This document shows, in pieces, positions 37,318 through 43,559 of a stretch of DNA of 43,559 nucleotides. Positions within the stretch are counted from its first letter, which is position 1, and each line of letters opens with the position of its first letter. The translations under genes were made by a program, and so were the position numbers. A model generated the notes under the pieces. It saw only the letters and a list, made by a program, of their open reading frames with translations, ran no database searches and was not told the origin of the DNA. This stretch comes from Acidobacteriota bacterium (GTDB lineage Bacteria > Acidobacteriota > Holophagae > Holophagales > Holophagaceae), in contig JAKAMQ010000004.1 in the NCBI GenBank assembly GCA_021812805.1, forward strand, positions 1 through 43,559, written 5' to 3'.

Positions 37318-37492
37318 GGGAAACCCGGACCCGGCGGGCCGTGAGGCGTGCCCCGTTCTCCACCGGAGGAAGCGCGGTGCCCCGAAGGTTGCCCCCATTC
37401 CTCCCGGGGCGCCTCCCACCGTGCGTATCCGGATGTTGCCCCCGCCGTGATCCAGGTCACCTTCGGTGTTGGGTTTATTGAAGGTTTATTTG

Positions 37493-37508
37493 TTGAGACT
37501 CATTCTCC
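37493..37508. promoter_or_regulatory. Fur-like box before the porin gene
   Basis: TGAGACTCATTCTC resembles Fur/Mur-type sites such as TGAGAATCATTCTC. It overlaps a possible -10 (CATTCT at 37501, 17 bases after TTGAAG) and ends five bases before the porin ATG. This suggests metal-dependent repression. Confidence 0.45.
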
Positions 37509-37512
37509 TTTT

Positions 37513-38820
37513 ATGCGAAACCCTGGCCCCGCTCTCCTTCTCCCCCTCGCGATCCTTGTCCAGGGCCCTACCGCCCGGGCCCAGGACCTTGAAACCTGGA
37601 GCCTCCACGGCCAGGCCACCACGGTGACCCAGGGCCACGGCGCCTTCCCATCGCCCTATGCCGGCACCAACAGCCTGGAATCCCGCAAGGAGATCCGGAC
37701 CTCGTTCACCACCACGCTCTTCCTGGGGCGGCGGCTCTGGGCAGGGGGCGAGCTGTACGTGGATCCCGAGGCGGCCGCGGGGCAGGGCATCAGCCAGGTG
37801 GAGGGCCTCGCGGGCGCCCCGAACGGCGAGACCTACCGGGTGGGCAGCCCGGATCTGAAGGCCTCCCTGGCCCGGATCTTCCTGCGCCAGACCTGGGGGC
37901 TCGGCGGCGGCACGGAGGCCGTGGCGCCGGACGCCAACCAGCTGGGCGGCACCCGCCGGACGCGCCGCCTCGTGCTGACCCTGGGCCGCTTCTCGGCCGG
38001 GGATGTCTTCGACCAGAACGCCTACAGCCACGATCCCCGCAGCCAGTTCCTGAACTGGGCCCTCATGGACACGGCCACCTGGGACTATCCGGCCGATACC
38101 CGCGGCTACACCTGGGGCGCGGCCCTGGAGGCGTACTGGGACGCCTGGGCCCTGCGCGCCGGGAGCTTCCTGGAGCCGAAGGAGGCGAACGGCCTGCTCT
38201 TCGACCACCATGTCGCCCGGGCCCACGGGGATGTGGTCGAGGTCGAGCACGCCCACGCGTGGGCGGGCCTGGCCGGTCGAATCCGGCTGATGGGCTACGC
38301 CAACCACGCCCGCATGGGCGACTACCGCGAAAGCCTGGCGCTCAGCCCCGCCGCCCCCGATGTCACCGCCACGCGGCGCGAAGGGCGGCTCAAGTACGGC
38401 TGGGGCCTCAGTGCCGAGCAGGCCCTGACGGCGGACCTGGGCGCCTTCCTCCGGGCCGGGTGGAACGATGGCCGGACCGAGACCTGGGCCTACACGGAGG
38501 TGGACCGCACCGTGGCGGCGGGGCTCTCCCTGGCCGGGCCAAGCTGGGGACGCCCCGCGGATCGGCTGGGCCTGGCGGCCCTCGTCAATGCCCTGTCGCC
38601 GGACCACCGCGCCTACCTCGCGGCAGGAGGGTACGGGTTCATTGTTGGGGACGGCCGCCTGAATCCGGGCCAGGAGCGGATCGTGGAGGCCTACTACGCC
38701 CTGGCGGCGGCGCCCGGCCTCACGGTGAGCCTGGATGCCCAGCGCGTCGAGAACCCGGCCTACAACCGGGACCGGGGGCCCGTGTCCATCTTCGCCCTGC
38801 GGGTGCATGGGCAGTTCTGA
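37513..38820 (+). CDS. Outer-membrane porin (OprB-like carbohydrate porin family)
   Basis: A 435-residue exported protein with a signal peptide (cleavage near ARAQ, residue 22) and alternating amphipathic strands throughout, ending in the Phe typical of outer-membrane barrels (RVHGQF). NAYSHDPRSQFLNWALMDTATWDYPADTRGYTWG is the recognisable OprB-type core motif. Members carry sugars, but some relatives near Nramp genes supply metal ions. Its placement between two matching leader ORFs and upstream of the Nramp-like gene suggests passage of a divalent cation here. No Shine-Dalgarno precedes ATG 37513, so it may be made from a very short leader. Confidence 0.85.
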   Translation: MRNPGPALLLPLAILVQGPTARAQDLETWSLHGQATTVTQGHGAFPSPYAGTNSLESRKEIRTSFTTTLFLGRRLWAGGELYVDPEAAAGQGISQVEGLAGAPNGETYRVGSPDLKASLARIFLRQTWGLGGGTEAVAPDANQLGGTRRTRRLVLTLGRFSAGDVFDQNAYSHDPRSQFLNWALMDTATWDYPADTRGYTWGAALEAYWDAWALRAGSFLEPKEANGLLFDHHVARAHGDVVEVEHAHAWAGLAGRIRLMGYANHARMGDYRESLALSPAAPDVTATRREGRLKYGWGLSAEQALTADLGAFLRAGWNDGRTETWAYTEVDRTVAAGLSLAGPSWGRPADRLGLAALVNALSPDHRAYLAAGGYGFIVGDGRLNPGQERIVEAYYALAAAPGLTVSLDAQRVENPAYNRDRGPVSIFALRVHGQF

Positions 38821-39067: not shown

Positions 39068-40399
39068 GTGTATCTCGTCAGCAAGGCCTTCCACCAGATG
39101 GAGCGTTGGCGTCGCCACCTCCTGATCTTCCTGGCCGTCCTGGGGCCCGGGATCATCGTCATGGTCGCCGACAACGATGCCGGCGGCATCTCCACCTATG
39201 CCGTCACCGGCTCGAAGTACGGTTTCCACCTGCTCTGGATCTTCGCCATCCTCGTCCCGATGGCCTACTACGTGCAGGAAATGACGGTCCGGTTGGGGGC
39301 CGTCACCAAGCGCGGGCACGCGGAGGCGATCTTCGAGGGCTTCGGCCCCTTCTGGGGCTGGTTCTCCCTCGCGGATCTGGCCATCGTCAACTGGCTCACC
39401 CTCATCACCGAGTACATCGGGATGATCACTGCGGGCCAGATGTTCGGCATCCCTCCGGTCGTGACCTTCCTCGGGGTGACCCTGATCCTCTTCGCGGTGG
39501 TGCTCACCGGAAAGTACTGGACCTTCGAGAAGCTCACCCTGTTCTTCTGCGCCTTCAACCTGGTCTACATCCCCGCGGCCTTCTGGGCCATGAGGACACC
39601 CACGGCGCCGGGCTGGGGGCTCGTGGGCAAGGGGCTGCTCATCCCCAACCTGCCCGGGGGGCTGTCCGGCGATCTCCTGTTCATCCTGCTGGCCAATATC
39701 GGCACCACCATCGCCCCCTGGATGATCTTCTTCCAGCAGAGCGCCGTGGTGGACAAGGGCCTGGACATCCACGACATCAAGTTCGGCAAGATCGAGACCT
39801 TCGTGGGGGCCGTCGTGACCTGCGTGGTGGCGGCCTTCATCATCATCACCACGGCTGCGGCGTTCCATCACCATGTCCCCCCCATCATCGTGGATGACGC
39901 AGCCAAGACGGCGGATGCCCTGATGCCGCTGCTGCCGCACGGCGAGGGCGAACTGGCGCGCAAGCTCTTCGCCATCGGCCTCTTCGACGCGGGATTCCTG
40001 GGCGCCCTGTGCATCTCGCTGTCGTCGAGCTGGGCCGTGGGCGAGGTCTTCGGCTGGGCCCACAGCCTCAACAAGAGCGTGAAGGATGCGCCCTGGTTCT
40101 ATGTCATCTACCTGGTGATGCTGCTCACCTCGGGCGCGGTGGTGCTCATTCCGCACGCCCCCCTCGTGACCATCACGATGTTCGTCCAGGTCGTGGCGGT
40201 GACGCTGCTGCCGTCGGCGCTGATCTTCCTGCTCCTCATCCTGAACGACGAACAGTTCATGGGTAAGCACGTGAACACGCGCTGGGAGAACATCGCCAAC
40301 TGGTCCATCGTCATCTTCGTGTCCATCATGTCCACCCTGTTCGCGGTCTCCACGCTCTTCCCGGGGCTGCTCGAACATCTGTCCCGGAGGGCCGCATGA
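39068..40399 (+). CDS. Nramp-like divalent cation transporter with altered metal motif
   Basis: A 443-residue membrane protein with about eleven helices. The first helix reads GPGIIVMVADNDAGGISTY: where Mn/Fe Nramps have Asp-Pro-Gly-Asn, this has DNDAGG (35-40). The sixth helix reads ANIGTTIAPWMIFFQQSAVV, so the usual Met-Pro-His is also replaced. Loss of the Met ligand is a hallmark of Nramp-related proteins that accept Mg or other hard ions; Mn is still possible. The start is GTG 39068 with GGAGGAGG seven bases upstream. Its stop overlaps the next gene (ATGA), coupling it to the PRC/MgtE-N/CBS protein, a likely cytoplasmic regulator. Confidence 0.9.
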   Translation: MYLVSKAFHQMERWRRHLLIFLAVLGPGIIVMVADNDAGGISTYAVTGSKYGFHLLWIFAILVPMAYYVQEMTVRLGAVTKRGHAEAIFEGFGPFWGWFSLADLAIVNWLTLITEYIGMITAGQMFGIPPVVTFLGVTLILFAVVLTGKYWTFEKLTLFFCAFNLVYIPAAFWAMRTPTAPGWGLVGKGLLIPNLPGGLSGDLLFILLANIGTTIAPWMIFFQQSAVVDKGLDIHDIKFGKIETFVGAVVTCVVAAFIIITTAAAFHHHVPPIIVDDAAKTADALMPLLPHGEGELARKLFAIGLFDAGFLGALCISLSSSWAVGEVFGWAHSLNKSVKDAPWFYVIYLVMLLTSGAVVLIPHAPLVTITMFVQVVAVTLLPSALIFLLLILNDEQFMGKHVNTRWENIANWSIVIFVSIMSTLFAVSTLFPGLLEHLSRRAA

Positions 40400-41676
40400 C
40401 CGTGCTCCCGACCGCACAGGACGCAACGCTGACCCCGCCGCGGGCGATCTATTTCTCCCGCATCCTCAACAAGCCGGTCCGGGTGGCCGGCGAAGGGCGC
40501 AAGCTCGGACCCGCCTCCGACATCGTCTTCAAGCTGGAGGAGCCGTTCCCCCGGGCCGTGGGCCTCTTCATTGACCACGGCTGGGGCGTGCCCACCGAGT
40601 TCGTGCCCTGGGACCGGGTGGTGGACCTGTCGCACCAGGGGGTGATCGTGAGGGCGCCGGAGTCGGGACCCAGCTACCCGCCCTTCCACGACCAGGCCGG
40701 CTGGATCCTCGCGGACAAGCACCTGATGGGCCGCACCATCCTGGACATTGACGATCGCAAGACCGAGGTGGTGAATGATGTGCTGCTGCAGGGGGACGAG
40801 AGCGGCATGCGTCTCGCCGCGGTGGACACCTCCTTCAACGGATTCCTCCGCAAGTGGGGGCTGGCCCGTCTCACGAGCCTGATCCGGGAGGACCTGGTGC
40901 CCTGGAAGTTCGTCCAGCCGCTCTCCCTGGAGGACGCGACGGGCTCGGACCGGCTGCAGCTCTCCATCACGAAGGAACAGCTTCACGACCTCCCGAAGGA
41001 GGATCTCGCCGATGCCCTCGAGGCGCTGACGGGGCAGGAGCAGGAGGCCCTGTTTTCGGCCCTGGAGCCCACCAAGGCCGCGGAGGCCCTCACGGAGACG
41101 GAACCCCGGGCCCAGCGCCAGATCATCGCCAGCCTGCGGCAGGAACGGGCCCAGAACATCCTGGCCCGGCTCTCCACGCCCCAGCTGGTGGATCTGCTCA
41201 GCGTGCTGCCCCACGAGGATGCGGAGGAGATGCTGGTGCTGCTGCCGGAGGAGCGCCAGCGGCGGGTTCGCGCCCTGCTCTCCGAGCGGGAAGCCACGGC
41301 GCGCGATTTCATGTCGCCGGAATACCTCACCGTGGAAACCGCGACCACGGTGGCCCAGGCCCGCGCCCTCATCCGGCAGTCGGGGCTGGGGCACAGCGGC
41401 ATCTCGTACCTGTACGCGACCGCGCCGGACCGCCGGCTGCTCGGCGCCGTGGATGCCCGCCTCCTCCTCATTTCCGAGGATGCGGCCCGGATGGAGGATC
41501 TGATGGCCTCGCCCGCCGTGGCCGCGGAAGCCGATGACATCCGCGAGGATCTGGAGGCCCTCTTCGACAAGTACCACTTCCGGATGATCCCCGTGGTGGA
41601 CCCGGAAGACCGGATCCTGGGGGTCATCCGCTACAACGACATCATGCGGAACCCCGGCCCCCGGCCGAAGGCCTAG
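40396..41676 (+). CDS. Soluble PRC-barrel / MgtE-N / CBS protein
   Basis: A 426-residue cytoplasmic protein with no membrane helices. Residues about 15-190 contain two PRC-barrel-like beta segments (VPWDRVVDL; VPWKFVQPL). Residues about 200-305 form the MgtE N-terminal superhelix (LPKEDLADALEAL, LVDLLSVLPHEDAEEMLVLL). Residues about 308-420 are a CBS pair (DFMSPEYLTVETATTVAQA; YHFRMIPVVDPEDRILGVI). In MgtE the same N-CBS module senses Mg and gates the channel; here the channel is missing and the module is translated together with an Nramp-like carrier (4-base overlap). I infer a trans-acting Mg or nucleotide sensor for that carrier. Confidence 0.92.
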   Translation: MTVLPTAQDATLTPPRAIYFSRILNKPVRVAGEGRKLGPASDIVFKLEEPFPRAVGLFIDHGWGVPTEFVPWDRVVDLSHQGVIVRAPESGPSYPPFHDQAGWILADKHLMGRTILDIDDRKTEVVNDVLLQGDESGMRLAAVDTSFNGFLRKWGLARLTSLIREDLVPWKFVQPLSLEDATGSDRLQLSITKEQLHDLPKEDLADALEALTGQEQEALFSALEPTKAAEALTETEPRAQRQIIASLRQERAQNILARLSTPQLVDLLSVLPHEDAEEMLVLLPEERQRRVRALLSEREATARDFMSPEYLTVETATTVAQARALIRQSGLGHSGISYLYATAPDRRLLGAVDARLLLISEDAARMEDLMASPAVAAEADDIREDLEALFDKYHFRMIPVVDPEDRILGVIRYNDIMRNPGPRPKA

Positions 41677-41685
41677 GAGTCAGTC

Positions 41686-41799
41686 ATGCCGAGGGTCAAG
41701 CTCACCCCCACCACCCGCTTCGCGCTCTACTTCCTGCGCTTCTACCTGATCTTCCTGGTGCTGCTGCTGGCGTTCCGGTTCATCAAGACGTTCCACTGA
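41686..41799 (+). CDS. 37-residue single-pass membrane peptide
   Basis: A short ORF nine bases after the MgtE-N/CBS gene, with AGGAG six bases before ATG 41686. The product has a basic N-terminus (Arg3, Lys5, Arg11), one hydrophobic helix (about 12-31, including LYFLRFYLIFLVLLLAF) and a short RFIKTFH tail. Tight placement at the end of the Nramp operon and good coding bias suggest a small subunit or modulator of the transporter, in the manner of other small membrane proteins that adjust carriers. No family is known to me. Confidence 0.7.
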   Translation: MPRVKLTPTTRFALYFLRFYLIFLVLLLAFRFIKTFH

Positions 41800-41835: not shown

Positions 41836-43119
41836 CTATTCGGGGGTGAGGATGCCGCGCTCCTCGCGGTAGGCGAAGAGTTCGCCGAACCGGCCCCACG
41901 CCACCAGGGTGTGGAAGGTCCGCTCGGGATCCTCCATGGGCAGGCGCTGGTGGAGTTCGGAGACCAGCTCCTCGCGGCTGAGCTGGCCCTCCCGCATCTC
42001 CAGGAGGTCGCTGACAACGCGGAAGAGCTTGAGCTTGAGCAGCTGCTCCTTCCAGATCCGCTTGCGCTCCTCCATGCCGGCGCGGACGAAGCGCTGGCCC
42101 AGGGGCGTGAAGAGCACCGAGCGTTTGGGCGTGTCCACGAAATCGAGCATCTCGGCGGCCTTCACGGAGGCCAGCACCAGCTCGAAGGGAACGTGGGTGT
42201 GCGACACCACCTGGAAGAGGTCGCAGGTGCCGCCCTGGGTCTCGAGGAATTCCAGCAGGCCCAGGATGTCGCCGCTCTGGGCGGAGGGGAGGGGTTCCGC
42301 CAGGTCCGCCAGCAGGCTCGGTTCCGGCGCGGACACCTCCACATCCGGCAGCTCGGTGCTGGTGATGATGTCGTGGAGCTGATCCACCAGCCGCAGGAAT
42401 TCCCCCGAGCGCGTGTCCCGGGGCCGGGGCAGGGCGTTCTCCACGATGGTGCGGACGCGGCCGGGGTTCGCCGACAGCACCACGATGCGGTCGGCCATGT
42501 AGGCCACCTCCTTGATGTCGTGGCTCACCATCAGGATGGAGGAGGGGTTCCGCTCGGCGTCATCCCAGATGTCCAGGATCTCGGCGCGGAGGCCCTCGGC
42601 GGTGAGGGCGTCCACCTGGCTGAAGGGCTCATCCATGAAGAGGATCTCGGGATCCACGCTGAGGGCCCGGGCCATGCCCACCCGCTGTTTCATGCCGCCC
42701 GACAATTCCCGGGGATAGGCCTCCTCGAAGCCCTCCAGGCCCACGAGGGTGATGGCGTGGTCGGCCCGGGAACGCACCTCGTCCTCGGGCATGCCCTTGG
42801 CGCGGAGCACCGTCCGGACGTTCTCCTCCACCGTCATCCACGGGTAGAGCGCGAAGCCCTGGAACACGATGGCGACGCCGGGATTCAGGCCATCCAGGCG
42901 CTGGCCATGATAGCGGGCCTCGCCCTTGCTGGCTCCGATGAGGCCCGCGAAGATCCGCAGGATGGTGGACTTCCCGCAGCCCGAGGGACCGATGAGGCAG
43001 AGCACCTCGTTAGGCCGGATATCGAGGTTGATGTCCTCCAGCACCCGCAGCAGGTTGCCGCCGCCGCGGTCGAAGGATTTCTGGACGCCCTTGAGTTCGC
43101 AAATCGGAGGTTCGGCCAT
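41836..43119 (-). CDS. NitT/TauT-type ABC transporter ATPase with AAA-associated C-terminal domain
   Basis: A 427-residue protein. The ATPase (about 1-260) has Walker A GPSGCGKST (44-52), signature LSGGMKQR (about 139-146), Walker B ILFMDEPF and switch His (SHDIKEVAYMADR). Residues about 285-425 form the extra winged-helix-like domain often called AAA-associated, found in ATPases related to the nitrate/sulfonate/taurine group. It powers uptake with the permease encoded three bases upstream. The substrate cannot be read from this half, and no binding protein is in the window. Confidence 0.93.
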   Translation of the reverse strand: MAEPPICELKGVQKSFDRGGGNLLRVLEDINLDIRPNEVLCLIGPSGCGKSTILRIFAGLIGASKGEARYHGQRLDGLNPGVAIVFQGFALYPWMTVEENVRTVLRAKGMPEDEVRSRADHAITLVGLEGFEEAYPRELSGGMKQRVGMARALSVDPEILFMDEPFSQVDALTAEGLRAEILDIWDDAERNPSSILMVSHDIKEVAYMADRIVVLSANPGRVRTIVENALPRPRDTRSGEFLRLVDQLHDIITSTELPDVEVSAPEPSLLADLAEPLPSAQSGDILGLLEFLETQGGTCDLFQVVSHTHVPFELVLASVKAAEMLDFVDTPKRSVLFTPLGQRFVRAGMEERKRIWKEQLLKLKLFRVVSDLLEMREGQLSREELVSELHQRLPMEDPERTFHTLVAWGRFGELFAYREERGILTPE

Positions 43120-43122
43120 GGG

Positions 43123-43559
43123 TCACTTCGTCAGAGAATAGCGGGTGGATGCGAGGTGGTAGCAGGGCCGCCAGACCAGGCGGTTGAAGGTGACCACCAG
43201 GCAGGACATGAGGATGACGCCGGCGGCGAGAAGGGGCAGATCGCGGTGGTAGGCCGCGGCGCTCACGGTGGAACCCAGGCCCCAGGTGGTGAGGACGTGG
43301 CCCTTGTAGTCCGCGTACTCGGCCACGATGCTGGCGTTCCAGGCGCCACCGGCGGCCGTCACCCAGCCCGTCACCAGGTAGGGGAAGATCGAGGGCAGGT
43401 AGAGGGCCTTCATGCGCTGCCAGCGGGACAGGTGGAAGCTCGTGGCGGCCTCGCGCAGATCGCCGGGGATGGCCATGGCCCCCGCGATGACGTTGAAGAG
43501 GATGTACCACTGGGTGCCGAGCAGCATGAGCAGGATGCAGCCGTAGTTCAGGCCCACGC
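43123..43559 (-). CDS. ABC transporter permease (5' part beyond window)
   Basis: The last 145 or so codons of a NitT/TauT-type inner-membrane permease; its start is off the right edge, and the Met at 43557 is internal. The coupling loop GDLREAATSFHLSRWQRMKALYLPSIFPYLVTG carries the EAA-motif that contacts the ATPase, and three hydrophobic helices remain (QWYILFNVIAGAMAI; PYLVTGWVTAAGGAW; LAAGVILMSCLVVTFNRLV). It ends three bases before the ATPase ATG, so the two are co-transcribed. Confidence 0.92.
   Translation of the reverse strand, partial: VGLNYGCILLMLLGTQWYILFNVIAGAMAIPGDLREAATSFHLSRWQRMKALYLPSIFPYLVTGWVTAAGGAWNASIVAEYADYKGHVLTTWGLGSTVSAAAYHRDLPLLAAGVILMSCLVVTFNRLVWRPCYHLASTRYSLTK

Follow-up and report, generated by a model that had tools for sequence, protein, structure and literature searches.

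Layout of the locus

The window, i.e., the whole stretch of DNA analysed (43,559 nucleotides from a bacterium of the Holophagaceae, Acidobacteriota), carries three consecutive genes on the forward strand. The first (39068..40399) starts with GTG at 39068, ends with the stop codon at 40397-40399 and encodes an NRMT-type carrier of 443 residues. The second (40396..41676, ATG at 40396, TAG at 41674-41676) encodes a soluble sensor-like protein of 426 residues, and the third (41686..41799, ATG at 41686) a membrane peptide of 37 residues with a single helix. An earlier reading of the DNA, made from the sequence only, had remarked that the carrier stop overlaps the gene of the soluble protein and that the tiny membrane protein follows nine bases later. 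Both observations are confirmed: the overlap is an ATGA (40396..40399, forward strand), read directly from the sequence, and nine bases separate the sensor TAG from the peptide ATG. The three genes form a tight operon. An OprB-type porin gene lies just upstream on the same strand (37348-38820), and a convergent ABC transporter, made of an ATPase with a C-terminal AAA-associated domain and a permease, is encoded at 41836-43557.

The same reading had proposed to survey genomes for the gene pair and the small open reading frame. We sampled the best 80 loci from a species collection, 73 of which extend past the sensor gene. The trio was present in all 73, with a whole peptide in 71 and a peptide cut by the contig end in the other two (L040, L085). 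Hence, the three-gene arrangement is not a matter of chance. The sensor gene lies downstream of every close carrier for which the sequence extends that far. These close loci come from Acidobacteria, Methylomirabilota, Syntrophaceae and other deltaproteobacteria, Myxococcales, Bacteroidetes, Ignavibacteriae, Planctomycetes, Verrucomicrobia, Hydrogenedentes, Sumerlaeota, and candidate divisions. The closest named ones belong to Holophagaceae bacteria, one of them a Geothrix. Within the genus of the window the carrier is patchy, and a copy from another family is as close (84%) as the copies from the same genus (G054; L003, L026), which suggests horizontal transfer of the carrier.

The carrier belongs to the Nramp family of Pfam (E 4.8e-74). 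Its nearest solved structure is the EleNRMT of Eggerthella lenta (7qia, E 2.5e-62), the best classical Nramp scoring 4.5e-14, and 7qia is also the top Foldseek match (TM 0.81/0.89) of its AF2 model (pTM 0.83). In the tree it groups with the NRMTs (Nramp-related Mg transporters), apart from MntH, on a branch of its own beside the one containing EleNRMT; the exact position of the DDDPSG group in this tree is weakly supported. By sequence and predicted fold, the carrier is an NRMT.

The membrane peptide, separate and fused

The peptide follows the motif MPRxxxTxxxRxALxxLRxYLxxLxxLxxVRF, and M1, L17, Y20 and L27 are invariant in the alignment. Its reading frame has a dN/dS of 0.14 over 18 independent pairs, the other two frames giving pN/pS values of 1.2 and 2.1. 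It is a real gene under purifying selection. Conservation along the helix has a period of 102 degrees per residue (permutation p 0.00025), as expected for a helix packed on one side, and thus points to a single conserved face. We found no named match in Pfam, NCBIfam or PHROGs, nor any small protein tied to NRMT or Nramp in the open-licence literature of PubMed Central, although a report elsewhere is possible. The gene is easily overlooked: two plasmid records (L194, L200) have annotated genes on either side of it but leave the peptide itself without annotation.

The sequence-only reading had seen in the locus a three-part Mg (or Mn) uptake system. The three parts hold as a gene set, but the peptide tracks the carrier rather than the sensor. 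Among 396 Acidobacteriota genomes, all 16 strong peptide matches fell within the 17 genomes encoding a close carrier (hypergeometric 1.3e-27, with kinship between genomes ignored), and in the seventeenth the locus is cut at a contig edge. In a second phylum (that of G424) we found five matches in 297 genomes, all beside the operon. The peptide occurs once in each of 20 genomes, except for one genome with two operons and two copies, and none of the strong matches was an orphan away from a carrier. A weak match in genome G290 was rejected as unrelated.

Gene order varies. The window has the order carrier-sensor-peptide; a sub-branch (L154, L168, L174) and two plasmids (L194, L200) have carrier-peptide-sensor. 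The two plasmids are conjugative and of the IncHI type, from Citrobacter and Serratia (pPSV for L194), and on both the operon adjoins genes for a P-type ATPase and an ArsR/SmtB-like regulator. A longer version of the peptide (62-99 residues) comes immediately after the carrier in clades X, Y and S, for whose carriers we found no neighbouring sensor. Comparison of the X, Y and S peptide profiles with the window family gave 94.9, 92.8 and 87.0%, against 0.3% for a reversed control. The EleNRMT/Acidobacterium-type carriers (branch Z) differ in that they are only about 35% identical to the window branch, have the sensor mostly upstream and come without the peptide, which we found in none of 19 loci; a diverged copy could escape detection there.

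In clade V, carriers of 530-587 residues have a peptide-like tail fused at their C-terminus. They include actinobacterial, bacillar and proteobacterial homologues, with plasmid-borne examples in Mycolicibacterium, Rhodococcus, relatives of Streptomyces, Cellulomonas, Arthrobacter, Leifsonia, Alicyclobacillus, Mesorhizobium, Paraburkholderia, and Methylobacterium (one member of the fused set, L201, has no annotated start). Beyond helix 11, the tail adds a further helix, then a basic loop and a terminal helix bearing the LRxYL core. It was the best match of the window-clade peptide profile in 12 of 12 clade V carriers. It should be noted that these single-sequence matches are weak (0.6-16 bits, where tail-less carriers reach at most 4.7 bits). 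The stronger test is the profile-profile comparison: hhalign gave 95.7% for the tail against the peptide, at most 1.1% for carrier windows off the tail, and 0.2% for reversed tails. Three members of the clade (L207, L208, L209) have no CBS gene next door. All the carriers with a separate or a fused peptide fall together in one clade (99/98), with branch Z and its EleNRMT outside it, so that a single gain of the helix would explain the distribution of the peptide.

The fused form also bears on topology. If helix 11 ends outside, as it would in the 11-helix fold of EleNRMT, then the fused tail would start in the cytoplasm. The free peptide is the more basic at its N-terminus (+3.1 versus +2.1), which agrees with this placement. 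We infer that tail and peptide share a topology with the N-terminus in the cytoplasm. As a subunit of the carrier, the separate peptide would cross the membrane once in this orientation, pack on the carrier via the conserved face formed by L14, L17, Y20, L24 and L27, and may serve carrier folding, stability or gating.

The peptide resembles MgtS, MgtR, MgtU and AcrZ, likewise tiny one-helix proteins tied to a transporter (PMC10710835), in size and in its single helix. Since small membrane proteins already known from Mg transporters affect turnover or stability (PMC10710835), the peptide could be a regulator of the kind of MgtR, MgtU or MgtS, shielding the carrier from FtsH or handing it over to this protease. 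We consider this unlikely, although it is the strongest of the alternatives. Unlike those proteins, the peptide has its gene within the carrier operon in many phyla and, in one clade, forms a single chain with the carrier; such constant linkage and fusion fit a constitutive subunit better than a switch. The best reading of these sequence comparisons is that the peptide would be a conserved single-helix subunit, previously unnamed, of one major NRMT branch.

The metal site and the link to magnesium

That the carrier lacks the two classical Nramp motifs, DPGN and MPH, had been pointed out before. The site alignment bears this out: DNDAGG takes the place of the MntH DPGN, and TTIAPW that of VVMPH, leaving DAGG and APW at the motif positions. 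The published signature of NRMTs is DxxG-TxxA/T, and EleNRMT, which has 11 membrane segments, works without proton coupling (PMC8806188). The DNDAGG of the carrier is therefore a hallmark of NRMTs and not an oddity. The carrier has D37-A-G-G40 on helix 1 and T213-T-I-A216 on helix 6, aligned respectively with Asp55..Gly58 and Thr224..Ala227 of EleNRMT, and the signature is kept in all 35 carriers of the window branch. The helix-6 histidine of MntH, which is associated with proton coupling, is replaced by W218, and EleNRMT also has a tryptophan here. The sites of the sensor-less sister clades X and Y are altered, and these carriers may therefore have another substrate; in clade Y (L020, L021, L159), for instance, GENDGPS stands at the position of DNDAGG, and helix 6 carries GATVTPW.

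Riboswitches link the relatives of the operon to Mg. Among 37 related loci scanned, seven have an M-box aptamer upstream on the same strand (L058, L066, L069, L070, L072, L093, L111), with scores of 95-136 bits for a gathering threshold of 44. The aptamer lies 229-671 bases before the carrier match. This gap contains a short open reading frame of 58-63 codons in L066 and L070, and none of at least 50 codons in the other five. We found no M-box upstream of the window operon itself, even at a relaxed threshold. In L197, L198 and L204, the first or second gene downstream of a related carrier encodes MgtC/SapB, a further hint of Mg. Fluoride riboswitch aptamers also occur near the operon, directly downstream in L073 (8818-8880) and upstream in L070 (2321-2390).

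With the NRMT signature, EleNRMT as nearest structure and M-boxes upstream of sister operons, the Mg uptake suggested by the sequence-only reading is well supported by sequence. Its other option, Mn, would be part of a rival explanation in which Mn, Fe or some other divalent metal is the main substrate that the carrier takes up, the sensor being a relic or otherwise employed. The Pfam assignment to Nramp is compatible with such a role, EleNRMT also carries Mn in proteoliposomes (PMC8806188), and some plasmid relatives adjoin heavy-metal P-type ATPases and ArsR/SmtB regulators. Yet the NRMT site signature is present in all members of the branch, M-boxes precede relatives, and neither an MgtE channel (PF01769) nor CorA was found elsewhere in the window genome, which is 88% complete. 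We hold this explanation to be quite improbable. In the reading we favour, the carrier would admit Mg2+ in its hydrated form, probably uncoupled from protons.

The sensor-like protein and the proposed three-part system

The composition of the soluble protein given by the sequence-only reading (PRC-barrel, MgtE-N and CBS parts) was recovered with Pfam: a PRC domain (17-89), MgtE_N (201-296) and a pair of CBS stretches; the protein has no membrane segment. The AF2 model has two beta-barrels (about 16-90, the PRC domain, and 100-180), an MgtE-N superhelix and a CBS pair, and its top Foldseek match is the MgtE cytosolic domain (2yvy, E 5.5e-18). The superhelix and the CBS pair are thus common to both proteins. 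The sensor differs from MgtE in its two extra N-terminal barrels, in the lack of a plug helix and of a channel, neither of which was found in the model or by domain search (PF01769 is absent from the protein), and in keeping the Mg ligands only in part. We compared the positions of E59, D91, D95, D226, D247 and D250 (Mg4-Mg7) of the MgtE cytosolic domain, whose ligands are discussed in PMC5882242. In the alignment of the sensor branch, the E59 position is acidic in 42 of 43 proteins, that of D247 in all 43, and D95 is an aspartate in 26 of 43; D91 is replaced by P, D226 by H and D250 by K. Because of this partial retention, Mg sensing is plausible but would be changed with respect to MgtE. Alternatively, the CBS pair may sense nucleotides.

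The earlier reading had the sensor working in trans on an unrelated carrier and implied that the pairing was new. This does not stand: Shin et al. reported in 2014 that NrmT transports Mg, that most members adjoin a gene for a homologue of the MgtE cytoplasmic domain, and proposed the same feedback (PMC4072509). With NRMT/NrmT as known from that study and from EleNRMT, the window operon and its relatives share the carrier family, the site signature, the adjacent MgtE-N-like gene and, in some members, the M-box. Hence, the pair of carrier and MgtE-N protein is already described, and the peptide is the new part. When the Acidobacterium pair was co-expressed in Bacillus subtilis there was no added rescue, and NRMTs work without the MgtE-like protein (PMC4072509). 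Control of the carrier in trans is plausible. The sensor would sit on the cytoplasmic side of the carrier and, at high internal Mg2+ (or Mg-ATP), would probably reduce the uptake. Apparent fusions between carrier and sensor genes were tblastn matches running past stop codons, and none survived a strict check.

A membrane anchor for the soluble sensor is what the peptide might be from its basic N-terminus and its place directly after the sensor in the window and close relatives, but this is very improbable, given that in clades X, Y and S its place is right behind the carrier, with no sensor found alongside, that its fusion partner in clade V is the carrier, including in the three loci without an adjacent CBS gene, and that branch Z has sensors and no peptide.

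Taken together, the three genes probably encode an Mg2+ uptake system of the NRMT kind in which the sensor damps uptake and the peptide is a genuine subunit. We put somewhat better than even chances on a broader reading, in which a whole branch of SLC11/NRMT depends on an unrecognised one-helix subunit, either separate (36-99 residues, often unannotated) or as a C-terminal helix of the carrier, that would belong to the Mg transporter as a dedicated part and serve the detached MgtE sensor as a physical link or gate. Work on NRMT carriers has treated them as lone proteins, and if the micro-subunit is obligate, aspects of function or control may have gone unnoticed in carrier-only assays. For structural work, the natural fusion offers a ready single-chain construct, while the clades with and without a sensor offer a way to see how a LeuT-fold carrier is controlled by a detached MgtE module.
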